NCBI RefSeq assembly: GCF_019733395.1
Contig: NZ_JAIHOO010000001.1
Location: 3,472,501-3,536,500, forward strand
From: Lysobacter sp. BMK333-48F3
GTDB lineage: Bacteria > Pseudomonadota > Gammaproteobacteria > Xanthomonadales > Xanthomonadaceae
Length of the DNA: 64,000 nt
Direction: 5' to 3'
Part shown: positions 2,520-41,859 of the stretch, piece by piece
Layout: every line of letters begins with the position of its first letter
Numbering within the stretch: the stretch's first letter is position 1
The notes under the pieces: generated by a model
The model's database searches: none
Told to the model about the DNA's origin: nothing
Seen by the model: only the letters and a program-made list of their open reading frames with translations
Translations under genes and position numbers: made by a program

Positions 2520-3182
2520 TCAGCCATTGGCCGGTTCCGCCAGACGCAGCACCAGATAACGCATGAAGAACTGCGTGACCGGGCCCACGCATAGCGCGAA
2601 TACCAGGGTGCCCACGCCGGCCGTGCCGCCCAACGCCACCCCCATCGCCAGCACCGCCATCTCGATGCCGGTGCGCACACGCTGGATCGACCCGCCCGTG
2701 CGGCGTGCGAGTCCGGTCATCAGGCCGTCGCGCGGCCCGGGCCCGAGTTGCGCCCCCACGTAGAGCGCGGTGGCCAGCGCACAGACCGCCACTCCACCGA
2801 CCAGGCAGGCGCAACGTAACGGCAACGACTCGGGCGCATCCAGAATCCGCAGATTGAGGTCGGTGAACGGTCCCAGCAACAGCGTGTTGGCCACGGTGCC
2901 CAGCCCGGGCATCTGCCGCAGCGGAATCCACAGCAACAGTACCGCCACGGCCACCAGGACCATGACCATGCCGAGCGACAGCGGAAGCTGGCGCGCAGCG
3001 CCTTGGTGGAATACGACCCACGGCGAGCCGCCGAGCGCGCTTTGCATCAACAGCGCGTTGGACACGCCGTAGAGCCATAGGCCGGCCAGCAGGCGCAAGA
3101 GCCGTTCCGGGAGACGGCCGGCACGGAGTTGGGCGAGAGGGCCGAGATTGGCCAGCCCGAGGGGAGAGGTATCGGGGTTCAT
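2520..3182 (-). CDS. YczE-like integral membrane protein
   Basis: A 220-residue protein with about five membrane segments. The N-terminus (PLAQLRAGRLPERLLRLLAG, then LYGVSNALL and GGSPWVVFHQG) matches the YczE/YyaS family (same broad class as YitT), often annotated as a membrane protein of unknown or transport function. The ATG chosen aligns with the family start; another ATG lies 33 bp upstream. It is divergent from a MocR-type regulator. YczE-MocR (YczR) pairs are a known arrangement in several phyla, so the regulator probably controls this gene. The transported or sensed ligand is unknown. Confidence 0.8.
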   Translation of the reverse strand: MNPDTSPLGLANLGPLAQLRAGRLPERLLRLLAGLWLYGVSNALLMQSALGGSPWVVFHQGAARQLPLSLGMVMVLVAVAVLLLWIPLRQMPGLGTVANTLLLGPFTDLNLRILDAPESLPLRCACLVGGVAVCALATALYVGAQLGPGPRDGLMTGLARRTGGSIQRVRTGIEMAVLAMGVALGGTAGVGTLVFALCVGPVTQFFMRYLVLRLAEPANG

Positions 3183-3243
3183 GAGCGCCAGTATCTGGAC
3201 GATTGGCACTTTCATGTAGAGCCATTTTCGCCATAGTGGCCTC

Positions 3244-4695
3244 ATGAATCGATCCATGACTGCAGAGCACCTGGCCACTTTGATCGGTCAGTTCCCGCGC
3301 AAGCCGGCCTACCGGGGGCTGCGCCAAGCCCTGCAGGAACTGATCGGCGGCGGCCGCATTCCCCTCGGCACGCGTTTGCCCAGCGAGCGGGCGATCTCCC
3401 AGGCGCTCGCCGTCTCGCGCAATACGGTGACCCGCGTCTATGCGGACCTGGTCGCCGCGGGTTACGCGACTGCGCGCCAGGGGGCGGGCACGTTCGTCGA
3501 GGTTCCCGACGACCGCCGGCGCGCGCACGAACACTCGCTGCGCCCGCTCGCCGGCGCGCGCGCCGCCGAAGGCGCCATCGACCTCAACTGCGCCGCGACG
3601 GCCGCCATTCCAGGTATCGCCTCGGCCTACGAACGCGCGCTGGAAAGGCTGTCCGGCTACCTGGGAAGCGAGGGCCACCGGCCAATCGGCCTGCCGACCT
3701 TGCGCGCGCTGATCGCGCAAATGTACGCGCGGCGAGGTTTGCCGACCGACCCCGAACAGATCATGGTCACCTCCGGGGCATTGGCCGGCACGGCGGTCGT
3801 CGCGCGCGCACTGTCGCGGCCGGGCGACCGGGCGATGATCGAATCGCCGGTATACCCCAACGCCATCGAGGCGCTGCGTCTGGGCGGCGCGCGTCTGGTC
3901 GCGTCGCCGATGGCCGATGCGCTAGGGGAGGAGGGCTGGGACTTGGATGGCATCGAGGCCACCTTGCGGCAGACGCGGCCGCACCTGGCCTACCTGATCC
4001 CCGATTTCCAGAATCCTACCGGCTTCCTGATGCGCGACGAGCAGCGCGCACGCTACGCCGCCGCGCTGCAGGCCACGCGCACGACCGCGGTCGTCGACGA
4101 ATCGCTGCAGGCCATCGCGCTGACGGACGCTGGCGTGCCCCTGCCATTCGCTGCGCACGCAGCGGGCGCGATCACGATCGGCAGCGTTTCGAAGTTGCTG
4201 TGGAGCGGGTTGCGCGTCGGCTGGATCCGCGCGCCGCACGACCTGATCGAGCGGCTTATCAAGGCCCGATTGCAGTTCGACCTGGGCACGGCGGTTTTCG
4301 ACCAACTGGTGGTGACCGAGTTGCTGGACAGCGGCGATGTCGTCGCGATGCGTCGCGCGCAACTTCGCCAGCGCCGCGATGCCCTGGCTCACGCTATCGA
4401 AGAACGGTTGCCGGACTGGCGTTTCCGGCTGCCGGAAGGCGGAATGACGTTGTGGCTGCAGTTGCCGGGCGGCAGCGCTACGCAGCTGGCGGCGCAACTG
4501 GAGACCGTCGGCGTTCATGTCCCCCCGGGCCCGATGTTCAGCGTCGAAGGCGGCAACGACCGGTGGCTGCGCATCCCCTACGTACGACCGGAGGAGGAGT
4601 TGATCGAGGCCGTTGCGCGCATCGCGGATGCTTGGTCGAGGTTGCCGGCCGGGCCCTCGGGTCGCCGCGACCGCTCGCGGGCGATCATTCTTTAG
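3244..4695 (+). CDS. MocR-family transcriptional regulator (GntR HTH + aminotransferase-like domain)
   Basis: 483 residues. Residues 20-90 form a GntR winged helix (GTRLPSERAISQALAVSRNT, then TARQGAGTFVEV). Residues 110-475 form a fold-type I PLP aminotransferase-like domain with the Schiff-base lysine in SVSK317 and the PDFQNPTG motif at 253-260. MocR proteins use PLP or an amino-acid adduct as effector rather than as enzymes. The divergent yczE-like gene is the likely target; the 61-bp gap between the two starts must hold both promoters and the operator. A second ATG 12 bp downstream is an alternative start. Confidence 0.88.
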   Translation: MNRSMTAEHLATLIGQFPRKPAYRGLRQALQELIGGGRIPLGTRLPSERAISQALAVSRNTVTRVYADLVAAGYATARQGAGTFVEVPDDRRRAHEHSLRPLAGARAAEGAIDLNCAATAAIPGIASAYERALERLSGYLGSEGHRPIGLPTLRALIAQMYARRGLPTDPEQIMVTSGALAGTAVVARALSRPGDRAMIESPVYPNAIEALRLGGARLVASPMADALGEEGWDLDGIEATLRQTRPHLAYLIPDFQNPTGFLMRDEQRARYAAALQATRTTAVVDESLQAIALTDAGVPLPFAAHAAGAITIGSVSKLLWSGLRVGWIRAPHDLIERLIKARLQFDLGTAVFDQLVVTELLDSGDVVAMRRAQLRQRRDALAHAIEERLPDWRFRLPEGGMTLWLQLPGGSATQLAAQLETVGVHVPPGPMFSVEGGNDRWLRIPYVRPEEELIEAVARIADAWSRLPAGPSGRRDRSRAIIL

Positions 4696-4892: not shown

Positions 4893-6029
4893 TCAGCGCT
4901 GCGGCTTGAATTCGACCGGGACGATGACGACGGCGGCGATGGGGCGGCCGTTGCGTTGGGCGGGGGCGAAGCGCCAGTGGCGGACGGCGGCGACGGCGGC
5001 GCGGTCCAGGTCGCGGTGGCCGCTGCGTTTGGCGACGTCGAGGCGTTGCGGGCGGCCGTCGGCGCCGACTTGCACGCGCAGCGAGACCAGGCCGCCTTCG
5101 CCGCGGCGCAGGGCGTCGAGGGGGTAGGGCGGTTTGGGGCTGTAGCCGGGCAAAGGGCGGGGCTTGGCGCTGGCGCCGCGCGCGGCGGTGTCGCGTTGCG
5201 CGCGCGGTGCGGTGCCCGTCGGCGCGACGCTTGCGGCGTCGTCGTTCGGGGCGGCCGGTGGCGTTGTGGCGTCGTCGTTGCTGCCGGCCGGGTCCGGCGA
5301 CTGCGGCGGCGCCAGCGGCGGGCGGTCCAGGCCGGGCGCGCCTTCGATCTGCTGCGACGAGGTTTCGCTTTCGATCTGCCGGTAGCCGTGCGATACCACC
5401 AGCAGCACCGCGATCACGAACACCACCGCCAGGCCCAACATCGGGATCCAGGCGGTTTCGGGCAGGGTGTGGCGGGTGAAGGCCGGCATCGGCGCGGCCA
5501 GCGCCAACGGTTTCGGCGCCGGCGGTTTGACCGCGGTGACGCCGAGCGGTACGGCCTGGTTGGGGTCCATGTGCAGGGTGCTGATCCGGCCTTGGTTCAG
5601 CGCTTGCGCGACCTCGGTGCTGGCGCCGAGCGCGGCGGCGACCTGTTCCAGCGCGATCGGCGGCGGCGAACTGCGGCGTTCCACGCCGGTGAAGCGGCGG
5701 CGGTTGTATTCGGCCCACAGGATCAGCAGCGCCGCGGCGCCGACCGCGGTGGCCGGCAGCACCAGCAGCAGGAAGGGGTCGATTTCGTGCTGGCGCAGAT
5801 ACAGTTCGGCTTCGGCGCGCTGGATGCCGAACAGCCACATGAACAAGGTGACCAGCGGCATCCACAGGTAGATGTAGACCGCCCAGAACGCGCCGGTGGT
5901 CAGGCCCCAGAAGGTGCGCGGCAGCAGCGGTTGCGAGTACGGCCGCTGGATCAGGCGCGAGTCGTGCCTGTGCCGCCGAGAGCGGCGCGGCTGCGGCTGC
6001 TGCGGTGCCTGTGGCTTGGGCGTGTTCAT
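4893..6029 (-). CDS. pgaD: PgaD-TonB fusion: PNAG synthase subunit with TonB C-terminal domain
   Basis: 378 residues, more than twice a normal PgaD. Residues 1-120 look like PgaD: an arginine-rich cytoplasmic start and two membrane helices (41-69, 86-106) ending in WAEYNRRRF. PgaD normally pairs with PgaC and, with it, senses c-di-GMP. A cytoplasmic linker (115-190) follows, then a third helix (194-213), a Pro/Ala/Asp-rich stretch (220-295) and a typical TonB C-terminal domain (297-376: PKPPYPLDALRRGEGG, SGHRDLDRAAVAAVRHWRF). The third helix places the TonB domain in the periplasm, where it could touch outer-membrane PgaA. The start overlaps the pgaC stop (ATGA). The fused domain is my reading; its role is untested. 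Confidence 0.85.
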   Translation of the reverse strand: MNTPKPQAPQQPQPRRSRRHRHDSRLIQRPYSQPLLPRTFWGLTTGAFWAVYIYLWMPLVTLFMWLFGIQRAEAELYLRQHEIDPFLLLVLPATAVGAAALLILWAEYNRRRFTGVERRSSPPPIALEQVAAALGASTEVAQALNQGRISTLHMDPNQAVPLGVTAVKPPAPKPLALAAPMPAFTRHTLPETAWIPMLGLAVVFVIAVLLVVSHGYRQIESETSSQQIEGAPGLDRPPLAPPQSPDPAGSNDDATTPPAAPNDDAASVAPTGTAPRAQRDTAARGASAKPRPLPGYSPKPPYPLDALRRGEGGLVSLRVQVGADGRPQRLDVAKRSGHRDLDRAAVAAVRHWRFAPAQRNGRPIAAVVIVPVEFKPQR

Positions 6030-7285
6030 CGCAGCCCCCGATCCGGGCTGACCCACACCGCGCGGGTGCCGCGGCGCTTGGCCAGGGCCTTGGGCACCGC
6101 GGCGACGGTGGTGGTGAAGCTCAGCAGCCAGAACACCATCGGGTACCAGATCATCCAGTAATAGTTACGGCCGACGCCGGTTTCGTAGCGGCGGTCGATG
6201 ACGATGCTGGCGGCGAACTGCAGCAGGCAGATCATCGCCAGGATCACCCCGTGCCAGGACGGCAGCAGGGTCGGCACGCGCAGTTGCTCGGGCAGTTCGA
6301 ACACTTTGCCCAGCGCCCACAGCAGGATGATGAAGGCCATCATGTAGGCCCAGGCCAGGCTGAGCAGGTACTCGCCCAGCACCGGCCACATCCGCCGGCG
6401 CCGCCACGAGAACAGGTCGCGGGTATGGCGCATCAGCACTTCGACGCCGCCCTGGGCCCAGCGCAGGCGCTGCTTCCACAGCCCGCGCACGGTTTCCGGC
6501 ATCAGGATGAAGCACATCGCATTGGGCTCGTAGCGGATGTCCCAGTGGTTCATCTGCAGGCGCCAGCTGATGTCGATGTCCTCGGTCACCATGCTGTCGG
6601 ACCAGTAGCCGATCTGGTGCAGGGCGGTGCGGCGGAAGGCGCAGATCACCCCGGAGACGGTGAAGATGCGGCCGTAGACGCGCTGGGCGCGCTTGATCAT
6701 GCCGATGATCGAGGCGAACTCGCCGACCTGCAGGCGGCCGAGCAGGGTCGAGCGGTTGCGGATGCGCGGGTTGCCGGTGACCGCGCCGACCCGCGCGCCC
6801 GAACACAGGTGCCAGACCATCCAGTGGGTGGCGTATTCGTCCAGCAAGGCGTCGCCGTCGATGCAGACCAGGTACTCCGAGCGCGCCGCCAGCGCGCCCA
6901 TGCGCATGGCGTTGGCCTTGCCCAGGTTGCGGTCGAGGTGGACCACGCGCAGCTGCGGGTACTGCGCGGCGAGTAGGTTGAGCTTCTCGCCGGTATCGTC
7001 GCCGCTGCCGTCGTTGATCGCGATCACCTCGAACGAGGGATAGCGCTGGGCCATCGCCGAGGCGATGGTTTCGCGCACGTTGTCGCCCTCGTTGTGGCAG
7101 GGGATCAGGATCGACACGAACGGCGCCGCGTCCAGCGCCGGCGGGTCGGTGCGGCCGCGGGCGTGGCGCTCGCGGCGCAGGTAGTAGTACAGCCCGCCTG
7201 CGATCCAGAAGAACGACATCACGATCGGGTAATAGAAGGCGAACTTGAACGACACCGCGAGCAGGGCGCTGAGAACGTCGTACAT
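6026..7285 (-). CDS. pgaC: Poly-beta-1,6-N-acetylglucosamine synthase (GT2)
   Basis: 419 residues. A processive family-2 glycosyltransferase of the inner membrane that polymerises UDP-GlcNAc into PNAG. N-terminal membrane segment (about 10-35), then the GT-A domain with SILIPCHNEGDN, NDGSGDD, CIDGDALL, the TEDIDISWRL acceptor-binding/catalytic motif and QRLRWAQGG (QxxRW), then C-terminal membrane helices. Length matches E. coli PgaC. Third gene of the pga operon, 64 bp after pgaB and overlapping pgaD by 4 nt. Activity is expected to need PgaD and c-di-GMP, as known for the family. Confidence 0.95.
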   Translation of the reverse strand: MYDVLSALLAVSFKFAFYYPIVMSFFWIAGGLYYYLRRERHARGRTDPPALDAAPFVSILIPCHNEGDNVRETIASAMAQRYPSFEVIAINDGSGDDTGEKLNLLAAQYPQLRVVHLDRNLGKANAMRMGALAARSEYLVCIDGDALLDEYATHWMVWHLCSGARVGAVTGNPRIRNRSTLLGRLQVGEFASIIGMIKRAQRVYGRIFTVSGVICAFRRTALHQIGYWSDSMVTEDIDISWRLQMNHWDIRYEPNAMCFILMPETVRGLWKQRLRWAQGGVEVLMRHTRDLFSWRRRRMWPVLGEYLLSLAWAYMMAFIILLWALGKVFELPEQLRVPTLLPSWHGVILAMICLLQFAASIVIDRRYETGVGRNYYWMIWYPMVFWLLSFTTTVAAVPKALAKRRGTRAVWVSPDRGLR

Positions 7286-7349: not shown

Positions 7350-9275
7350 TCAGCGTTCGATGTAGGGGAAGCCGCGCGCGGACATGATTTCGCGCGCGTC
7401 GGCGGTCGAGGGCAGGTCGTCGATGAAGTTGTCCGGGTACCAGGCCAGATGGCGCACGCCGGCGGCCTGCAGGCGCCGCGCCATGGTCTTCAACCGTTGT
7501 GCCGGGATCGGCTTGTCGTCGCGCCAGTCCACGGTCTGCAGCTCGAAAATGGTCCGCGCTAGGCCGCTGGGCGAGCGCGCCACCTGCGCCACCAGCCGGT
7601 CCATCCAGGCCTGCGGCTCGCGGCTGTTCTCCATCCACGGCATCGCCATCACCGCGGTGTAGTCGTAGGCCTGGTTGAACGCGGCCAGGTTCTGGGCGAA
7701 CCAGCGCTCGCTGTCGGGGCGCAGTACCGGCTCGGCGAACAGGTTGCGCACGGTGATCAGCTTGGGCCGCCATTTGCCGGCGGCGCGGGTCAGCTCCTGG
7801 GTGAACTCGATCAGCGCCTGGGTGCGCTGCGCGGCCTGCTCCGGCGCCTGGCCGCGCAGTTCGTCGTCGCGCAGCAGGGCGTCGTCGTGGAACAGCAGGC
7901 CTTCGGTGTAGCCGCTGACCGCCAGGTCTTCGTAGATGTCGGCGACGATCTGGCGCGCCTGCGGCTGGAACGGATTGAGGCGGAAGGTTTCCTTGGGGTT
8001 GCTGGCGGCGATCGCCAGACGCTGGCGCAGCGCGGCGTCGGGCAGTTCGTAGCCCAGCACCGGCAACCAGGCGAACACCTTGACCCCGGCGCGGGTCTTG
8101 AGCTGCCAGGCGACCCGGTTGTACAGGTCGGCGCGCATCGGCAGGTGCCGGTTGGGGAAGTACAGCGCGTCGGCCGAACCGTTGCCGTCGGGGTCGGCGA
8201 AGGCCTGCAGGAACACGTGGCTGGGGCCGACCTGCTTGACCCGTTCGATCAGCTTGTCCAGGTTGCGCGCCTGCTGCGCCGGGTCGGCGTCGTAGACGTA
8301 GTCCAGGTCGACCTGCAGCGCGCGCAGGCCGTCCAGCGCTTCGTCGTGGCGCAGTTCGTAGGCCAGGTCGTTGACGGTCGGGTTGTCGAACACCAGCAGC
8401 CGGGCCAGGCCGTGCAGGTCGCGGCGCAGGGTCTGGTGGCGGCCTTCCAGGTCGAAGGTGACCTGCATGCCGAGCTGGTCGGCGATGGCGTTGGTCTGGC
8501 TGTTGTAGGCCGCGTACGGCCACACCACCGACTGCGGGGCGACGCCGAGTTCGCGCTTGATCGCGGCGACGCTGTCGCCCAGGTCCTTGCGGATCCGCGC
8601 CAGGTACTCGGCTTCGGTTTCGTAGCGCTCGGCCTTGGGATCCCACACCCGGGTGATCGCCGCCGGCATGCTGTTGCCCTGCGGGTTGGAGGTCACGCCG
8701 CGGTGCAGGGCGTGGCTGTGCGAGGCGATCTCGATCAGGCCCGAGGCCTGCATCTCGCGCAACTGGTCCCAGGTGACGAAGTCGTCGTGGGTGAACATGC
8801 GCGGGCCGTAGTCGACCTGCTGGTCGCGCGGCAGATCGACCCACGAGGTCACCACCGCCATCAGCGCCGGATAGCCGTAGGCGCGCAGCAGCGGGAAGGC
8901 GTGGGTGTAGATGCTGCGCAGGCCGTCGTCGAAGGTCAGCAGCACCGCCTTGGGCGGTAGCGGCTGCTCGCCGCGCGAAGCGGCGATGACCTGGCTCAGC
9001 GACACCGGACGGTAGCCGTGGCCGGACAGCCAGTCCAGGTGGGCGGCGAAGTTCTGGGTGCTGACCGCGTAGGCGTCGGGGTCGCCCTTGCGGGCGACGT
9101 CGTCGCGCACGTCGTGGTAGCTCAGCACCAGCAGTTCGTCGGCCTGGGCCGGCGCCAGCGCGGCCAGGGCCAGCGCGGCGGCGGCGAGCAGGCCGCGCAA
9201 CGCGCGCAGCGCGCGGGTGCGCGGCAGTAGGGTGGCGTGGCGGGTTGCGGCGGGGAGGGTTCCATCCATGTTCAT
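7350..9275 (-). CDS. pgaB: Poly-beta-1,6-GlcNAc N-deacetylase / glycoside hydrolase
   Basis: 641 residues. Partial de-N-acetylation (and cleavage) of PNAG in the periplasm, needed for export. Residues about 1-45 are a signal peptide ([19 protein letters not shown]). The CE4 domain follows, with VLSYHDV, LLTFDDGL (catalytic and metal Asp) and the ASHSHALH metal histidines. The C-terminal half is the GH153-type domain (DLDYVYDADPAQQARNLDKL and later FNQAYDYTAVMAMPWME). E. coli PgaB is a lipoprotein, but no lipobox cysteine is seen here, so this one is probably soluble. The start has GGGGAG upstream and overlaps the pgaA stop by 4 nt (ATGA). Confidence 0.95.
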   Translation of the reverse strand: MNMDGTLPAATRHATLLPRTRALRALRGLLAAAALALAALAPAQADELLVLSYHDVRDDVARKGDPDAYAVSTQNFAAHLDWLSGHGYRPVSLSQVIAASRGEQPLPPKAVLLTFDDGLRSIYTHAFPLLRAYGYPALMAVVTSWVDLPRDQQVDYGPRMFTHDDFVTWDQLREMQASGLIEIASHSHALHRGVTSNPQGNSMPAAITRVWDPKAERYETEAEYLARIRKDLGDSVAAIKRELGVAPQSVVWPYAAYNSQTNAIADQLGMQVTFDLEGRHQTLRRDLHGLARLLVFDNPTVNDLAYELRHDEALDGLRALQVDLDYVYDADPAQQARNLDKLIERVKQVGPSHVFLQAFADPDGNGSADALYFPNRHLPMRADLYNRVAWQLKTRAGVKVFAWLPVLGYELPDAALRQRLAIAASNPKETFRLNPFQPQARQIVADIYEDLAVSGYTEGLLFHDDALLRDDELRGQAPEQAAQRTQALIEFTQELTRAAGKWRPKLITVRNLFAEPVLRPDSERWFAQNLAAFNQAYDYTAVMAMPWMENSREPQAWMDRLVAQVARSPSGLARTIFELQTVDWRDDKPIPAQRLKTMARRLQAAGVRHLAWYPDNFIDDLPSTADAREIMSARGFPYIER

Positions 9276-11368
9276 TGCTCTCCCCAACGGAAGTTCAGAT
9301 CGAAGCCGAGCCGGTCCTCGCGCCGGCCGTCGTAGACCGGGCGCGACCAGTTCAGGCCGTAAGTCAGGGTGCGGCCGGTGCCCAGGCCCCATTCGTGTTC
9401 GTAGCGCAGCTGCGGCACCCAGGCGCTGCCGTAGCCTTGTTGCCAGTACGGGCCGGCGTAGGCGGTGAAGCGCTGCAGCAGGTGATGGCTGTAGCGGCGC
9501 CAGGCGACGTGGTTGACGCGCAGGCCGAGATTGAGCGAGGCGTCGCGGCTGGGGTTGAAGTAGGGCACGTCGGCGTCGCGGCGGCTGGCGCGGCTGGCCG
9601 AGAGTTCGGCCAGGCCGTCGACCTGCAGATGCGGACGGGTGTAGGCGCGCTGGTTCAGCGCCAGCGTCAGCGCGCTGCGCCGGTTGTCGTCGCTGTAGCG
9701 CAGCTGCTGCACGCGGGCGTCGAGCGCGGTGCGCTCGCTCGGGGTCCAGCGCAGGCCCAGGCTCAGCGCGTCGGCGTCGATGCCGGCGCGGCGCGCCTGC
9801 AGCGAAGCGTCCGGCGATTGCCGGTACCAGGACGCGCTGCCGCGCCAGGCGTCGTCGAAACGCCAGCCGGCGTCGAGGTAATAACCGGTGCGGTCGTCGC
9901 GGCCGAGCCAGCGGTCGCTGGCGCGGTCGACGCCGAAGCCGAGGCTGAGCCGGTCGTAGGCGTAGCTCGCGCCGATGCCCTGGCGGCGGTCGTGCACGCG
10001 TTCGCCCGGGTAGTCGGCCCAGGCGTCCTGGGCGTGCGCGGTCAGGCGCCAGCGGTCGTGGATCAGCGGGCTGCTGATCTCGACCCGGTGGGTGCCGTCG
10101 CGGCTGCCGAGCGGCGAGGCGCTGTCGCCGCCGCCGTCGGCGCGGCTGCGATGGCTCGAGGTCGACACCTGCCACTGCCAGCCCAGCCGGCTTTCCCAGG
10201 ACTCGCGCATCTGCCGCACCTGCACGTCGCGTTCGCGGCGGGCCAGCAGTTCGTCGTGGATCGGACGCGCCAGGTCGACCCGGTCGTGTTCGAGATAGGC
10301 GCCGATCTGGCCGATCCGCGCGCCGACGCTGGTCGGCTCCAGGGTGCTGGCCATGCGGAAGCGTTCCAGCGCGCGTTCGGTCCAGCCGCGGCGCTGGTAG
10401 GCGACGCCGAGGTTGGTCTGCAGGCCGGCGTTGTTCGGGCCGATCGCCGCCAGCGCTTCCAGGCCGCGCTGCGCGCCGACGGTGTCTTCGCCGTACAGGC
10501 CGACCATGATCAGGTTGGTGTCGGCGTCGTAATGGCGCCAGTTGGCGTGGCTGACCTTGGCCCCGGGCACGCGCACGAAGGCCGGCTCGGCGGCCTTGAT
10601 CTTCTCCAGTTGTTTTTTCGCGTCGTCGAAACGCTCGGCTTCGGAATAGGCATAGGCCAGCTGCAACTGCGAATCGTGGTCTTCCGGCATCTCGCGGACG
10701 ACCCGTTCCAGCACCGTCGCCGCTTCCTCGGGGTGGCGCGCGGCCAGCAGCGAGGCGCCGACCCGGGCCAGGGCGTACAGAGGCACTTCGACGCCTTCGG
10801 CCTGCAGCTGGCGATAGTTCTGCACCGCTTCGGCGTGGCGCTCGAGGATGTTGAGCATCACCAGTTCGTCGAAGCGCGTGCGCAGGTCGGCCTGGCGCTG
10901 GCTCTCGCTCTGGCCCTGGCGGTATTCGGCGATCGCGCTGCGCGCGGCGCGGATTTCCTCCAGCCGCTGTTCTTCGTTCTCCGGGTACAGCCCGCCCCAC
11001 ACCACCATCCGCGCCAGGCGATTGGATTCCAGGCGCTGGCGCTCGTCGGCGCTGAACAAGCCGGGGCGTTCGCGGTACAGGCTCCAGGCGCGATGGGCGT
11101 TGCCGAGGTCGGCCAGGGTCAGCACCTGCAGGCGCAGCAGGGCCTCGTCGCCGGGGCGGGCGGCGAGGGCGGCTTCGATGCGCGACAAGGCCGCCAGCCA
11201 CTGCCGGTCGGCGCGCAGGCGCTCGATCTCGGGCAGCGGAGACTCAGAGAGAGGGCTGGCGTACTTGTTTTGACTCTCAGAGGCAGAAACTGACGAAAAT
11301 GGGCAAATTGAGCTAGCAGAAACCAGGGCGAAGGCAAGAGCGTAAGAAAGGCGATGCGTAATCGGCAT
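9272..11368 (-). CDS. pgaA: PNAG outer-membrane export porin
   Basis: 698 residues. Outer-membrane protein through which deacetylated PNAG leaves the cell. A signal peptide (RLSYALAFALVSASSICPFS) is followed by an all-helical TPR-rich periplasmic half (about 40-400, e.g. LEALAAIGPNNAGLQTNLGV) that in PgaA binds polymer and PgaB. The C-terminal beta-barrel half has alternating aromatic strands (YYLDAGWRFDDAW, SASWYRQSPDASL) and ends in FDLNFRWGEQ. First gene of the operon. The ATG chosen begins the signal peptide; the open frame reaches 192 bp further upstream, across the Clp-type site, so the longer version is unlikely. Confidence 0.9.
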   Translation of the reverse strand: MPITHRLSYALAFALVSASSICPFSSVSASESQNKYASPLSESPLPEIERLRADRQWLAALSRIEAALAARPGDEALLRLQVLTLADLGNAHRAWSLYRERPGLFSADERQRLESNRLARMVVWGGLYPENEEQRLEEIRAARSAIAEYRQGQSESQRQADLRTRFDELVMLNILERHAEAVQNYRQLQAEGVEVPLYALARVGASLLAARHPEEAATVLERVVREMPEDHDSQLQLAYAYSEAERFDDAKKQLEKIKAAEPAFVRVPGAKVSHANWRHYDADTNLIMVGLYGEDTVGAQRGLEALAAIGPNNAGLQTNLGVAYQRRGWTERALERFRMASTLEPTSVGARIGQIGAYLEHDRVDLARPIHDELLARRERDVQVRQMRESWESRLGWQWQVSTSSHRSRADGGGDSASPLGSRDGTHRVEISSPLIHDRWRLTAHAQDAWADYPGERVHDRRQGIGASYAYDRLSLGFGVDRASDRWLGRDDRTGYYLDAGWRFDDAWRGSASWYRQSPDASLQARRAGIDADALSLGLRWTPSERTALDARVQQLRYSDDNRRSALTLALNQRAYTRPHLQVDGLAELSASRASRRDADVPYFNPSRDASLNLGLRVNHVAWRRYSHHLLQRFTAYAGPYWQQGYGSAWVPQLRYEHEWGLGTGRTLTYGLNWSRPVYDGRREDRLGFDLNFRWGEQ

Positions 11369-15142: not shown

Positions 15143-15541
15143 GCAGCGCAGCGGAATGAAGAGCGAGCGTGCCGATACGGCGCCTGGTCGAATCCTCGCT
15201 TCTGGTTCCGGCTCAGCGGTCGTTGAACGCGGTTGTGACGCAATGCGGGCTTTAACATCGCGCGCTGCGGCCAGCATAAAACGGCGAGCCTCCGCTTTCG
15301 TAAGTCGGTGGCCGCTGCGCGCTCGTTCCTGCATTCGGCCGGCGTTCTCGTCGCGACCGTGACGCTTTCCAGGCTTTAACGCCGCGCTCATGTCCGCCGC
15401 AGCGCGGCGTCGTCCGCGGCTGCGAATCGTTCCCGATCTGTCCCGATATCGCCCCGGATTGTTCCTCGGCAGGCGTCGCGTGCGGGGCTAGGGTCGCAGG
15501 TGCTGTCCCCATCCACCTGGACGATCCTCAGCGAGGCGCAT
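15143..15541. other. Intergenic region without recognisable features
   Basis: About 400 bp between two secreted-protein genes on the same strand. I see no gene, clear hairpin terminator, promoter hexamers at proper spacing or family repeat. The next gene has a GAGG ribosome site just before its ATG. Confidence 0.4.
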
Positions 15542-17860
15542 ATGGAACGCATGCGACGTAACCGCAGCGCAGGACGGCTGGCCGCCGTGCTGGCCGCGGG
15601 CCTGATGCTGGCCGCGCCCTGGGCGCAGGCGCAGAACTTCGAAACCTATTACGGCAACCAACCTTGGCGCGACCGCGGCGAGGACGTCAAGACGGTCAAC
15701 TTCTGTCCCGGCGGCGGTTCGGTCACCGTCGGCACGCGCCGCTCCAGCGACGGACTGGAACAGGTGCTGGTGACCCGCGCCAACGACAGCGGCGTCACCG
15801 ACAACCCGGGCCTGAACACCTGGCAGCAGGCCTATCCGATCGCCGGCAGCAAACTGTCGAATGCGTTCGGCGTGATCGAACTGACCGGCGGCCGCGGTTT
15901 CGCCGTGACCGGCGCGGTCACCGTCGGCGACGGCAGCTTCGTTTACGTGCTGCAGATCGATTGCAAGGGCTATCCGCGCTGGACCACCTTGCTCGACAAC
16001 CTCGATCCCTCGCATCGCGCCACCGGCTACGACCTGATCGAAGGCGGCACCACGGTGTCGAGCACCGCCGGCAACGGCCAGATCGTGGTGGTCGGCGAAG
16101 AGATCGACCGCAACGGCCGCAGCTTCGGCCGCATCGCGCGCCTGGACCCGGCCGGCAACGTGATCTGGGACCAGGACTACGACGGCGGCAGCGATTGGCC
16201 GAACCTGCGCTTCCGCGCGGTGACCGAAAACCTGGCCGGCACCGGCGGTTACACCGACCTGGTGGTGGCCGGTTCGGCCTGGTCGAGCGCGGCGCGCGGC
16301 GGACTGATGTTCCGTACCGACGGCGGCGGCGCGCCGGTGTGCAGCAGCGTGCTCGCCACCGGCCAGGACCACCGCGACTTCCACGGCCTGGCCGCGTTGC
16401 TGAGCCCGAACTACCAGGGCGAGACGGTGCTGGTCGGCGCCGCCAGCACGCTCAGCGGCGGCAACGCCCAGGTCTACATGGCGCGCTATTCGCGCCTGAG
16501 CTGCGCGCCGAAAGTGCAGTCGGTGTGGCAGGACCGCGCCCAGGCCAGCTTCACCGCCTTCGACGTGGTCGAGGCGCGCAGCCTCGACGGACGCGACGGC
16601 GCGCTGGCGGTGGTCGGCACCATCGCCGGCACCCAGGGCTTCCTGCTCGCGGCCAATCATCGCGACCTGCTGCGTTACGGCGGCCTCGGCCCGCGCCGCT
16701 TCGGCGACAAGTTCCGCGAAAGCCTGTACGCGATCGACAGCAAGCGCGACCGCTTCATCCTCGCCGGCGACACCTACGGCGACTGGCAGGGCGTCGGCGA
16801 CGCGCAGGACGTGTACTTCGTCCAGGTCGACCCGGGCCTGAACACCGGCTGCGCCGATCCCTGGGAACCGGCCGCGGTGCCGGTCGACCTGCCGTACAAG
16901 CAGCCCTTGCCGCATCCGATCCGGATCCCCGAGTTCCGCCGCGCCGACACCCCGCTGCTGCAGGCCAGCGATTGGGGCTATGCCTGCGCGCTGGATCCGC
17001 CCGAGGGCTGCCCGGGCCTGATCAACAACGGCATCGTCCAGCTCGGCGTGTCCAACACCGGCTACCTCAACATCGAGTGTCCGAACATCGACCTGTCCAG
17101 CGGCCGCTACGGCACCCGCCTGGTCGGCCTGCGCTACATGCCGACCAACGGCGAAGCCTCGGCGCCGGGTGCGCCGTGCGAAGGCTGGGGCGTGGCCAAT
17201 GCCGATCCCTCGGCGCCGGTCACCGGCCGCACCTCGCGTTGCGCCGGCACCAGCAACATGTCGGTGGTGAGCTTCACCTCCACCCCGAGCACGGCGACCT
17301 CGGTGGTCAACGTCGGCAACACCTTCCGCGTGACCCACCAGTACACGCCGATCGCCGCGACCAGCTACCTGTACCGGGTCGACGTCAGGATCGAGAACAT
17401 CGGCCGTACTCCGGTCAACGATCTGCGTTACACCCGCGGCATCGACTACGACATCCCGCCGAACACGTTCTCCGAGTACATCACCATGGCCGGCGCTTCG
17501 CCGTTCCTGTTGGCCTGGAACAACAACGGCTTCAATTCGCTCGATCCGTTGGCGGCCAATAGCGGCACCTCGGGGCCGATGACCGATTTCGGCCCCGGCG
17601 ACCTCGGTTCGCACATGGACTTCCGCTTCGGTGCCTTGCCGGTCGGCGCTTCGCGCAGCTTCGTCACCTTCTACGGTGCGGCGCCGACCCAGACCGCGGC
17701 CTTGAACGCGCTGTCGATCGTCGGCGCGGGGCTGTACTCGTTCGGCCAGACCAACTGGGACGGCGTCGGCGGCGCCGGCAATACCAATCCCAACCCCGGC
17801 ACCTTCGGCGCCACCACCGGCGCGCCGGCGACCTTCATGTACGGCTTCAAGACGCAGTGA
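15542..17860 (+). CDS. Secreted protein of unknown function
   Basis: 772 residues with a clear signal peptide (RLAAVLAAGLMLAAPWAQA, cleavage near residue 30). The first 470 residues contain repeated short beta-rich units with the patterns VVGTxxG and VLVGAAS, compatible with a beta-propeller-like domain. The last 260 residues form a second domain beginning NNGIVQLGVSNTGYLN, containing YRVDVRIENIGRTPVNDLRY and ending FYGAAPTQTAALNALSIVGA. Six or more cysteines suggest disulphides. The ATG used places the signal peptide at the N-terminus with GAGG upstream; 14 extra codons are open upstream. A strong terminator follows. I do not recognise an enzymatic motif; it may be a surface or matrix protein. 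Confidence 0.8.
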   Translation: MERMRRNRSAGRLAAVLAAGLMLAAPWAQAQNFETYYGNQPWRDRGEDVKTVNFCPGGGSVTVGTRRSSDGLEQVLVTRANDSGVTDNPGLNTWQQAYPIAGSKLSNAFGVIELTGGRGFAVTGAVTVGDGSFVYVLQIDCKGYPRWTTLLDNLDPSHRATGYDLIEGGTTVSSTAGNGQIVVVGEEIDRNGRSFGRIARLDPAGNVIWDQDYDGGSDWPNLRFRAVTENLAGTGGYTDLVVAGSAWSSAARGGLMFRTDGGGAPVCSSVLATGQDHRDFHGLAALLSPNYQGETVLVGAASTLSGGNAQVYMARYSRLSCAPKVQSVWQDRAQASFTAFDVVEARSLDGRDGALAVVGTIAGTQGFLLAANHRDLLRYGGLGPRRFGDKFRESLYAIDSKRDRFILAGDTYGDWQGVGDAQDVYFVQVDPGLNTGCADPWEPAAVPVDLPYKQPLPHPIRIPEFRRADTPLLQASDWGYACALDPPEGCPGLINNGIVQLGVSNTGYLNIECPNIDLSSGRYGTRLVGLRYMPTNGEASAPGAPCEGWGVANADPSAPVTGRTSRCAGTSNMSVVSFTSTPSTATSVVNVGNTFRVTHQYTPIAATSYLYRVDVRIENIGRTPVNDLRYTRGIDYDIPPNTFSEYITMAGASPFLLAWNNNGFNSLDPLAANSGTSGPMTDFGPGDLGSHMDFRFGALPVGASRSFVTFYGAAPTQTAALNALSIVGAGLYSFGQTNWDGVGGAGNTNPNPGTFGATTGAPATFMYGFKTQ

Positions 17861-19241: not shown

Positions 19242-19928
19242 TCAGGACGCGGCCGCGCCGGCGCGGCGCAGGAAGAACAGCTCGCCGTCGCGTTCCACCG
19301 CCAGGCCGTAGGCGCTGGCGATCGCGCGCAGCTTGCCGGCGTCCAGGCGCCATACCGGCTCGACGTCGTCGACGCCCAGGTCCAGGGTCCATTGCATGCC
19401 CAGCCAATGGGTGAGGACGAAGCCGCGCTCGCTCAGCAGCCCGGCCAGGGTTTCGAAATAACGTTCCAGATGGCGCTGGCAACAGGCGAAGCTGGCCAGG
19501 TTGTTGTCGAGCACGCAGTCGTAGCGGCGTGCGCGGAACTGTTCGGCGAACTCCAGGCCGTGCTTGTTGAGCAGATGCACCTGGTAGTCGGCGATGCCGA
19601 GGCTGCGGCCGTGTTCCCATTCGCCCGCCGCCACGGTCACCGACGTCACCCGCGCGCGGCCGGCCAGCAGGCGCGCGACCGAGGAGTTGCCGGTGCCGAT
19701 GTGCAGCACCTCGCGTCCGTCCAGCTCGGCCTGTTGCAGCCAGTGGTTGATCGCCTGCTGGTCCTCGGTCGGCTCGCACTGCGAGTAGTCGAGCAGGGGC
19801 CAGGTGGCGCGCTGCTCGGCGGCCTGATGGGTGTCGACCTGCGGTTCGCGCCCGCAGTCCAGGCGCTGCGCGCCGATGTCGAAGCGCGGCCGGAACGCGG
19901 TCGCGGAGGAGGTCGTGGATGAGGTCAT
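19242..19928 (-). CDS. Class I SAM-dependent methyltransferase-like protein
   Basis: 228 residues. A Rossmann-type motif I is seen in VLHIGTGNSSVARLL (G-x-G-x-S), followed by VTSVTVAAGEWEHG, where the acidic residue ending strand 2 is expected. DCVLDNNLASFACCQRH then fits motif IV/post-I of a class I methyltransferase. The C-terminus (LTHWLGMQWTLDLGVDDVEPVW) is a small beta-rich lid. The first 30 residues are polar and low in complexity, and no good ribosome site precedes the chosen ATG, so a downstream start is possible. It is first in a two-gene unit with the MFS transporter, divergent from a glycosyltransferase. Substrate unknown. Confidence 0.65.
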   Translation of the reverse strand: MTSSTTSSATAFRPRFDIGAQRLDCGREPQVDTHQAAEQRATWPLLDYSQCEPTEDQQAINHWLQQAELDGREVLHIGTGNSSVARLLAGRARVTSVTVAAGEWEHGRSLGIADYQVHLLNKHGLEFAEQFRARRYDCVLDNNLASFACCQRHLERYFETLAGLLSERGFVLTHWLGMQWTLDLGVDDVEPVWRLDAGKLRAIASAYGLAVERDGELFFLRRAGAAAS

Positions 19929-20293
19929 GGCGTCGGTCGGTGCGAGCGGTGCGGATCGATTCTTCAACGCGCGCCGGCGCGGTGTCGAGCGAATGCGCGC
20001 GCCGTTGCCGGAACTGCTAAAGGTCGTCACAGAAAACGCAGTGCGCCTGCTTTCATTCTTGCTTGCGAAAAACGCGGCCATGCATCGCGTTTTCGAAAGC
20101 GAACCGAGTAAAAAGTTTCGCTTGCAAGCGTTCCGCGTTTTGCCGTGCCTCCCCCCGCTGTAGCCAACGCAAGCACCGAACGTGCGGCCCTGCCCAGCAG
20201 GCGCCGTATCGACGCGTCCGGTCTGCCCAACAGACCCTGCGATCCGCCGTACGCGAAGCGTGCGCGGGCCGCGTTGCCGGATGCGTTCTCCCC
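19929..20293. promoter_or_regulatory. Divergent intergenic region with palindromes
   Basis: 365 bp between divergent genes, with a locally AT-richer core (about 20030-20150). It contains a perfect 12-bp palindrome, CGCTTGCAAGCG (20119-20130), and an imperfect inverted repeat (CGAAAAACGCG near 20067 with CGCGTTTTCG near 20088). No promoter can be assigned with confidence. An in-frame ATG at 20063 could extend the glycosyltransferase by 77 residues, but the translated stretch is basic and unlike the family. Confidence 0.4.
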
Positions 20294-21484
20294 ATGCTGA
20301 GCCAGTTCGTTCTGACCGGTCTGGTCGGTTTCTCGACCCTGATCCTGTTGTGCTGCCTGATCTTCCTCGCCGGCTGGGCGGTGTGGCGCGCCTTGCGCCG
20401 GCCGCCGTCGCCGACCCTGGCCGACTATCCCTTCGTCTCGATCCTGGTGCCGTTCTACAACGAGCCGCCGGCCTCGTTCCTGCGCACGCTGGAGGCGATC
20501 GAGAACGCCGAGTACCCCGGCCGGATCGAAGTGTTGTTGGTCGACGACGGTTCGACCAACGCCACCCCGCAGGCGCTGGCGCAGTGGCTGCGGCAACCGC
20601 GCGAGAAGCATTACCGCCTGGTGCCGCTGGCGCGCAACGGCGGCGCCAAGGGCCTGGCCCTGGACGCGGCGCTGCCGCAGCTGGCGCCGGAGTCGGACGT
20701 GGTGACGGTGATCGACAGCGACACGGTGATCCTGCCGTGCTCGTTGCGGCGCGCGGTCGAAGCCTTGTACGCCTCGCCGCGCCACGCCGCCGCCTGCGGC
20801 CTGATCGTGCCCGACGAGCGCCATCGCTCCTGGCTGCACCGGCTGCAGTTCTACGAACACGTCGGCGCGCTGGCGGCGATCCGCTACGTGCAAAGCAAGA
20901 TCGGCGTGGTCAACGTGGTCGCCGGCGCGTTCTCGCTGCACCGCACCGCGGTGATCCGCGAACTCGGCGGCTGGGGCGACTGGCTGGTCGAGGACATTTC
21001 CTGGACCTGGCGCGCCTTCGCCCACGGCTATTCCATCGCCTACGCGCCGGACGCGATCGCCTACACGATCTGCCCGACCACCCTGCAAGGCCTGTTCCGC
21101 CAGCGTCGGCGCTGGGCGCGCGGGCGGCTGGAGTCGTTCCGGGTCGCCTGGCGGATTTCCTGGGCGCGGACCATGACCATGCTGCCGTGGTGGCTGCTGT
21201 GGGCGCAGTCGGCGCTGGTACCGACCTTGCTGTTGCTGATCGCCGGCGCGCTGGTCTACCGCAGCCCCAGCCTGCTCGCGGTGGCCGGCCTGAACTGGTT
21301 GCTGATGGCGGCGCTGAACTTCGTCTCGATGATCCAGGCCCGCACCCGGCTCGGCTTGCGTCCGCTCGACCTGGCCCTGGTGTCGGTGTGCAACACCGTC
21401 ATCGACGTGCTGTTGCTGCCGGCCAACCTGATCGGCCTGCTCGACGAACTGCGCGGCGGTCGCAAGACCTGGCTGACCCGCTGA
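20294..21484 (+). CDS. Processive GT2 glycosyltransferase (NodC/IcaA/HasA-like)
   Basis: 396 residues. An N-terminal membrane helix (about 8-34), then a GT-A domain with SILVPFYNEPP, VDDGS (83-87), DSD (141-143), ED (233-234) and QRRRW (270-274), then four C-terminal membrane helices. The D,D,D,QxxRW pattern and membrane layout are those of inner-membrane synthases of chitin oligomers, hyaluronan, PNAG or cellulose. It is not the PNAG synthase, which is encoded in the separate pga operon. The next gene, 7 bp downstream, is a NodB-like deacetylase, so the product is probably an N-acetylglucosamine-containing oligomer or polymer that is then deacetylated. The start lacks a strong ribosome site. 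Confidence 0.8.
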   Translation: MLSQFVLTGLVGFSTLILLCCLIFLAGWAVWRALRRPPSPTLADYPFVSILVPFYNEPPASFLRTLEAIENAEYPGRIEVLLVDDGSTNATPQALAQWLRQPREKHYRLVPLARNGGAKGLALDAALPQLAPESDVVTVIDSDTVILPCSLRRAVEALYASPRHAAACGLIVPDERHRSWLHRLQFYEHVGALAAIRYVQSKIGVVNVVAGAFSLHRTAVIRELGGWGDWLVEDISWTWRAFAHGYSIAYAPDAIAYTICPTTLQGLFRQRRRWARGRLESFRVAWRISWARTMTMLPWWLLWAQSALVPTLLLLIAGALVYRSPSLLAVAGLNWLLMAALNFVSMIQARTRLGLRPLDLALVSVCNTVIDVLLLPANLIGLLDELRGGRKTWLTR

Positions 21485-21491
21485 GCCGCGC

Positions 21492-22205
21492 ATGGACTGG
21501 CACGGATTCCTGCAGCACCGCCCGCAAGCCTATCTCGGCCGCGGCGCGCCGGACCGGCGGGTGCTGGCGCTGACGTTCGACGACGGCCCCGGCGCGGCGA
21601 CCCCGGACTTGCTGGACGCATTGGCCGAACTGGACGTGCGCGCCAGCTTCTTCTGCGTCGGCGCGGCGATGCGCGCGCGGCCGGCGCTGGTGCGGCGCTT
21701 GCTCGACGAGGGGCATGAGCTGGGCAACCACTCCGAGCGCCATGCCGACGCGCGCGGCATCGAGGCCGGACGATGGATGCGCGAAGAGGTGGCGCCGGCC
21801 GCGCAGGCGCTGGCGGCCGCTTGCGGATCGACGCTGCAGGCCGCGCCCGCGCCCTTGTTCCGCCCGGCCTACGGCGAAATCGACGCCGCGCAATACGAGG
21901 CCCTGGCCGCGGCCGGCTACACCGTGGTCGGCTGGTCGGTCGACCCGCGCGACTGGCTGGAGCCGGACGCGCCCGGCTACGTACCCTGCGTGGTCGAATC
22001 GGTGCTGGCGCGTATCCACCCCGGCGCGATCGTGCTGCTGCACGACGGCGACGACGAAAGCGGCCGCGCGCGCGGCGGCATCGTCGAGATCGTGCGCCGG
22101 CTGGTGCCGGCGCTGCGCGGTCAGGGCTATGGCTTGGTCAGGGCCGGCGATTTGTTGGCCGAGCGGCCACCGACCGATCCGGAGCGGGCCAGCGCCGCGA
22201 ACTGA
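21492..22205 (+). CDS. NodB-like polysaccharide deacetylase (CE4)
   Basis: 237 residues, essentially only a NodB homology domain. TFDDG (28-32) provides the catalytic base and metal Asp, H80-SER-H84 the metal histidines, FRPAYGEID motif 3, and IVLLHDGDDE motif 5 with the late histidine. No signal peptide is seen, so it probably works in the cytoplasm on a nascent or lipid-linked oligosaccharide, like rhizobial NodB, rather than on finished cell-wall polymer. It is tightly coupled to the GT2 gene upstream. The pair resembles nodC-nodB in composition; whether the product is a chitin oligomer is inference. Confidence 0.85.
   Translation: MDWHGFLQHRPQAYLGRGAPDRRVLALTFDDGPGAATPDLLDALAELDVRASFFCVGAAMRARPALVRRLLDEGHELGNHSERHADARGIEAGRWMREEVAPAAQALAAACGSTLQAAPAPLFRPAYGEIDAAQYEALAAAGYTVVGWSVDPRDWLEPDAPGYVPCVVESVLARIHPGAIVLLHDGDDESGRARGGIVEIVRRLVPALRGQGYGLVRAGDLLAERPPTDPERASAAN

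Positions 22206-39984: not shown

Positions 39985-41859
<1,875 letters not shown>

Follow-up and report, generated by a model that had tools for sequence, protein, structure and literature searches.

A conserved fusion of PgaD to a TonB C-terminal domain in PNAG operons of Lysobacter

PgaD, the partner of the PNAG synthase PgaC, is joined in Lysobacter sp. BMK333-48F3 to a third hydrophobic helix, a spacer and a TonB C-terminal domain (TonB_C). The fusion is genuine, conserved and under selection, and it concerns a synthase controlled by c-di-GMP. In E. coli, PgaD has been reported to bind c-di-GMP together with PgaC, which activates the synthase (PMC8461298). With somewhat more confidence than doubt, we read the added part, hereafter the arm, as a motor-less periplasmic tether on this c-di-GMP-sensing synthase. 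An arm built naturally into PgaD, found in 15 of 20 Lysobacter genomes and missing from the other 5, offers a ready test of the way in which the PNAG synthase of the inner membrane reaches the exporter of the outer membrane; a tether, if true, would show a TonB domain working independently of the Ton motor. The gene lies in the window, i.e. the whole stretch of 64,000 nucleotides that was analysed, in which a complete PNAG operon, pgaA-pgaB-pgaC-pgaD, runs on the minus strand from 11368 down to 4893:

9272..11368, minus strand: pgaA, export porin with TPR repeats (TIGR03939, 406 bits, cut-off 367; start at 11368 predicted from the signal peptide)
7350..9275, minus strand: pgaB, deacetylase (TIGR03938, 802 bits, cut-off 322; start at 9275 predicted)
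6026..7285, minus strand: pgaC, PNAG synthase (TIGR03937, 632 bits, cut-off 422)
4893..6029, minus strand: pgaD-tonB fusion gene, 378 aa, ATG to TGA, the final gene of the pga operon
5565..5951, minus strand: PgaD domain, residues 27-155 (PF13994, E 2.6e-23)
5388..5453, minus strand: third hydrophobic helix, residues 193-214, lacking the motor-contact His (hydrophobic segment and pattern scan)
5169..5387, minus strand: spacer, residues 215-287, steady in length and free in sequence
5319..5348, minus strand: juxtamembrane motif IEGAPGLDRP, residues 228-237, with a similar motif in 21 of 23 fused sequences
4905..5138, minus strand: TonB_C, residues 298-375 (PF03544, E 1.1e-20)

Both domains are recognised in one frame by Pfam and NCBIfam profiles alike. 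The PgaD part reaches 83.1 bits with PF13994 (cut-off 27) and 114.4 bits with the equivalog TIGR03940 (cut-off 31.45), covering profile positions 3-142 of 148, and the TonB_C part reaches 74.3 bits with PF03544 (cut-off 24.6) and 67.4 bits with TIGR01352 (cut-off 27.1), covering 78 of 79 profile positions; the two-domain protein of the original prediction is thus borne out, with its coordinates correct, and the Pfam search that had been proposed as a check matched both domains. The products of the adjoining pgaA, pgaB and pgaC genes all score above their NCBIfam equivalog cut-offs, and the start codon of pgaD-tonB overlaps the pgaC stop by four bases (ATGA), so that the protein shares with an ordinary PgaD (PF13994, TIGR03940) both the whole-length domain and the operon position. 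The G+C content at codon position 3 stays at 0.89-0.92 across all four regions of the fusion gene, which argues for a single frame coding throughout. Together with the same architecture in at least 32 database proteins and 17 genomes, this steadiness rules out an assembly or frameshift artefact, namely that two separate genes had been joined in error.

A search with the window protein returned 79 relatives, at least 32 of which (P0003-P0034) carry both Pfam domains; this figure is a lower bound, as scoring was confined to the 8000 candidates with the largest number of words in common. When the PgaD part served as the query and the search was restricted to proteins of like length, which finds close kin only, 16 relatives were obtained, 15 with two domains and one partial. 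The named two-domain proteins belong to Lysobacter, one Luteimonas aquatica and one 'Pseudomonas sp. CGJS7', the last being 52% identical and ranking among the Lysobacter sequences; further relatives are a protein named for L. firmicutimachus, at 85% identity, and a record of L. antibioticus HS124, at 85%. In a sample of 395 genomes of the family, a PgaD match was found in 145 (144 above the cut-off), and among the matches listed the fusion profile covers both halves in 17 of these, i.e. 15 of 20 Lysobacter genomes (including that of the window) and two of 18 PgaD-bearing Luteimonas genomes, the arm being absent from the other five Lysobacter and 16 Luteimonas; for this count the fetched loci were re-read and the remaining genomes were judged from the match ranges among the matches listed. 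Each of the 17 fused genomes has a single PgaD match, and therefore the fused form is the sole PgaD seen there. The five unfused Lysobacter genomes measure 4.4-4.7 Mb vs 5.1-6.3 Mb for the fused ones. When frames were re-read with our own profiles, 36 loci (some overlapping) with TonB_C had 213-235 residues after the PgaD domain, comprising helix, spacer and TonB_C, whereas in 83 loci (some overlapping) without TonB_C the ordinary PgaD ends 3-64 residues past the domain. Outside the family, no TonB_C was found at 20 PgaD loci from 18 genomes in a class-wide sample of 369 genomes (15 of them recognised by our own PgaD profile), nor at 18 new PgaD loci in a phylum-wide sample of 398 genomes (11 of the 18 recognised).

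The TonB half is conserved to about the same degree as PgaD and is under purifying selection. The mean pairwise identity among 23 fused proteins is 0.74 for PgaD and 0.76 for TonB_C, against 0.54 for helix 3 and 0.38 for the spacer; between the two Luteimonas-type sequences and the rest, the corresponding values are 0.61, 0.59, 0.37 and 0.16. Nei-Gojobori dN/dS over nine pairs is 0.11-0.43 for TonB_C, 0.05-0.30 for PgaD and 0.13-1.09 for the spacer. These figures bear on the possibility that the tail is a passenger, tolerated after the stop codon between pgaD and a tonB-like gene was lost and having no role in PNAG production. The absence of the tail from five Lysobacter and from 16 of the 18 PgaD-bearing Luteimonas is what such a passenger would lead one to expect; however, dN/dS of TonB_C lies well below 1 in all nine pairs and its identity across the clade is as high as that of PgaD, and we hold this explanation to be most improbable.

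The order of helix, spacer and C-terminal domain is shared with TonB (PF03544, TIGR01352); the fusion differs in that this set sits behind PgaD. Three hydrophobic segments were found in the window protein, at residues 45-70 and 82-108, both inside the PgaD domain, and at 188-220, in agreement with the three-helix topology claimed at the outset. Provided that PgaD has its usual orientation, these segments would place the TonB domain beyond the membrane. Charge counts gave no decision, with K+R frequencies per residue of 0.18 and 0.10 for the parts presumed to lie inside and of 0.16 and 0.13 for those presumed to lie outside, so it is from the segments that we infer an arm reaching the periplasm. 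The spacer measures 73-88 aa in all 23 fused sequences. It had been described as Pro-rich, which holds for the window protein and the two sequences nearest to it, where Pro makes up 15-21%, holds partly for others, and fails as a general description, as the content ranges over 4-21% in the 23 sequences; five Lysobacter spacers have Pro- and Gly-free stretches of 53-58 residues with high helix propensity, and are somewhat similar in this to TolA. Just past helix 3, the motif EG[TA]PG[LMI]DRP occurs in 21 of the 23 sequences, the pattern having been chosen after the motif was seen. A resembling motif was found 31-44 residues past the helix in nine of 52 stand-alone TonB_C proteins, with a tenth match elsewhere, and in shuffled spacers this type of motif arose at most 2 times. 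Its presence suggests that PgaD gained an entire TonB-like protein.

TonB and TolA are reported to bind their motors via a Ser-His-Leu-Ser (SHLS) helix pattern (PMC12204202), and the D-box of TonB is reported to bind ExbD (PMC10907165). In helix 3, by contrast with TonB, a core His is missing from all 23 fused sequences (P0033 alone has a His, as its first, interfacial residue), the full SHLS pattern occurs in 0 of 23, and after the helix the D-box is matched in 0 of 23 under the strict pattern and in four of 23 under the loose one. As a control, the exbB-linked TonB of the same genome (L003) keeps the His and fails both the full SHLS and the strict D-box pattern, so that the motor argument rests on the His. 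These results go against an energised arm, in which ExbB/ExbD or TolQ/TolR would drive PgaD-TonB and the protein would pull on the export complex. The complete TonB_C, the presence of a membrane helix and four ExbB-family matches elsewhere in the genome are compatible with it, but no ExbB homologue lies in the window. The use of ExbB/ExbD energy, one of the roles first offered for the fusion, is therefore not supported by the sequences, and we regard an energised arm as very unlikely.

TonB_C domains are not confined to motor-linked proteins in this genome, which has 10 matches to the domain. By eye, three of these proteins have the helix His (L003, L008 and L158) and L002 has Asn in its place; a lipobox is present in three (L005, L006 and L159), and a tandem pair of TonB_C genes beside serS, where no pga gene is found, lacks the helix His; the tenth match is the fusion itself. 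The lipobox proteins and the His-less pair indicate that TonB_C commonly serves in this genome without a helix of the motor type.

The tether that we favour would work as follows. Gene fusion would have extended PgaD by a third membrane helix, by a spacer that is steady in length and lies in the periplasm, and by TonB_C; the PgaC-PgaD pair would work as elsewhere. The motor-less arm would hold the synthase to the PgaA/PgaB export complex, to another outer-membrane protein or to the cell wall, and the polymer would then be synthesised where export is possible. We infer this tethering, and the coupling of synthesis to export, from the following: the fused PgaD is the sole PgaD seen, TonB_C is conserved and selected, the spacer is steady in length, the motor His is missing, His-less TonB_C is common in the genome, and in the alginate system Alg44 is reported to interact with AlgK; the two domains, their conservation, the purifying selection on the TonB half and the missing motor-contact His are observed directly. 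Against the tether we count that no partner, no TonB box in PgaA or PgaB and no shared PgaA residue was found, as well as the absence of the arm from many relatives, and a PgaA that is short in fused and unfused operons alike.

The search for a partner covered PgaA and PgaB. In the text available from PMC9384988, the N-terminal TPR region of PgaA is suggested as a bridge to PgaC/D, with no experimental evidence yet linking the two complexes. Neither PgaA nor PgaB matches a simple TonB-box pattern in any of the 17 fused operons, and the sole match to it among 41 PgaA is in an unfused operon (L113). Residues specific to the fusion and common to both fused lineages numbered 0 in PgaA (1-22 in thirteen control lineages), 3 in PgaB (controls 0-10), 2 in PgaC (0 in eleven controls, 1 in one and 5 in one) and 2 in the PgaD core (controls 0-1); in these comparisons PgaC and PgaD appear slightly above most controls, with too few residues to build on. 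A shortened PgaA as the reason for the arm is not specific, as the N-terminus is short in 10 of 10 proteins tested, five fused and five unfused, whose profile matches begin at model position 123-165 of 800. Likewise, the idea that the lipid anchor of PgaB was traded for the arm is rejected; a lipid anchor is described for the PgaB of E. coli (PMC9384988), and by eye the canonical lipobox is absent from 39 PgaB sequences of this family, fused or unfused (the lipobox search pattern had missed both fused Luteimonas PgaB). Within Lysobacter, with two near copies left out, identity to the window proteins is 67-73% in fused vs 47-51% in unfused operons for PgaA, 82-90% vs 68-71% for PgaB and 85-88% vs 82-84% for PgaC. 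PgaA and PgaB of the two fused lineages are moreover not each other's nearest kin. The arm thus persists together with exporters that differ from one another, and so it would bind something general or a feature that these exporters share. A bridge to PgaA, the other role first offered for the fusion, has left no trace in these comparisons. PgaA or PgaB as the partner is a special case within the tether reading, and one that we put forward tentatively as fairly unlikely. The operon is a mosaic within Lysobacter: the nearest kin of pgaA and pgaB differ between fused and unfused operons, and pgaC looks native to the genus.

The intact TonB_C could instead serve as a sensor, reading the state of the outer envelope, e.g. 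the free TonB boxes of TonB-dependent receptors, and gating PgaC-PgaD from the periplasmic side, so that PgaD would have two inputs. The domain is of near normal length, its PDB matches are solved TonB C-terminal domains (2k9k, E 3.7e-07), and the C-terminal domain of TonB is reported to recruit the Ton-box of a receptor as a strand (PMC10907165). However, no receptor is among the Pfam matches of the scanned window proteins (27, some counted twice) and nothing ties the operon to a receptor; moreover, helix-prone spacers of ~58 residues may, by our estimate, fall short of a receptor plug. We consider such a sensor unlikely. In a wider form, which we offer as a rather improbable speculation, PgaD would be a two-input receptor that combines cytoplasmic c-di-GMP with an envelope signal received through the motor-less TonB domain, be it the TonB boxes of nutrient receptors, the assembly of the export complex or contact with the cell wall, and PNAG would be made only where and when the envelope is ready. 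We know of no polysaccharide synthase gated by a domain of the TonB type, and a two-input PgaD, if true, would be the first case.

As to the origin of the fusion, in a tree of the PgaD core, from which the TonB part was omitted, the 17 fused sequences fall on one side of a branch with support 92/91, and a grouping of all Lysobacter is rejected (p 0.043); after removal of ten long-branch sequences these values become 82/79 and p 0.19. In the TonB_C tree the fused sequences group with support 98/90, with a stray long branch (L006 of the window genome) inside and the bootstrap not settled, and a clade of fused sequences alone is not rejected (p 0.21). Among the stand-alone TonB_C domains nearest to them is a member of the pair beside serS (open fork, 80/91). 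Quick trees reject a single clade of fused operons for PgaA (p-AU 1.6e-81) and PgaB (8e-4), and for PgaC such a clade is borderline (p 0.050). The PgaD and TonB_C trees are suggestive of a single origin of the fusion, the likely course being that it arose once and was then transferred or lost. Among 24 unfused operons, read ~10 kb to each side, only one has separate TonB_C genes, a single case to which we give no weight. In that operon (genome G391, locus L105, 13326-17654), two TonB_C genes of the type of the serS pair stand directly upstream of pgaA.

Two known systems invite comparison. The alginate c-di-GMP receptor Alg44, which has a PilZ domain (PMC9734138), is reported to interact with AlgK (PMC9384988, PMC9734138). 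It resembles the fused PgaD at most in its working, as a c-di-GMP receptor of a synthase reportedly in contact with the outer-membrane side via AlgK; the domains are unrelated, and the comparison, made from the available text of these sources, is our own. A PgaD of Mariprofundus (P0083) and three relatives (P0084-P0086; tailed loci of this type are L151, 1465-2409, and L152) likewise have a third hydrophobic segment, and they end in a tail very roughly 90-120 residues long. This tail differs in being poorly conserved, rich in S/T/P/A and devoid of TonB_C, Pfam giving PgaD alone. A third helix and a tail, as judged from these sequences, may have been added to PgaD more than once.

The remark that no PNAG system with such a fusion had been described agrees with the open-access literature, in which we found no description of it; most subscription journals were outside this coverage. 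Both domains are already listed on the fusion entries in protein databases. A survey of exopolysaccharide operons (PMC7112194) counts fusions between the operon components themselves, and the words TonB and Lysobacter are absent from its main text. In a genome paper on L. capsici, a gene for a protein with the PgaD domain is noted within a cluster that is probably for PGA (PMC10384520), the L. capsici PgaD of the protein database (P0029) is fused, and for a different L. capsici strain the expression of pgaA, pgaB and pgaC has been measured (PMC8969512).

Elsewhere in the window, three frames at 15500-17860 (plus strand), 2520-3278 (minus strand) and 19242-20081 (minus strand) are long and coding-like, and have no Pfam match at the limits used. 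A diguanylate cyclase with a 7TMR-DISM sensor is encoded at 39985-41859 on the minus strand, ~34 kb from the pga operon, and is a possible source of c-di-GMP for it. Finally, a glycosyltransferase of family 2 that matches chitin synthase (20063-21484, plus strand) is followed by a polysaccharide deacetylase (21492-22205), the two forming a second small pair of polysaccharide genes.
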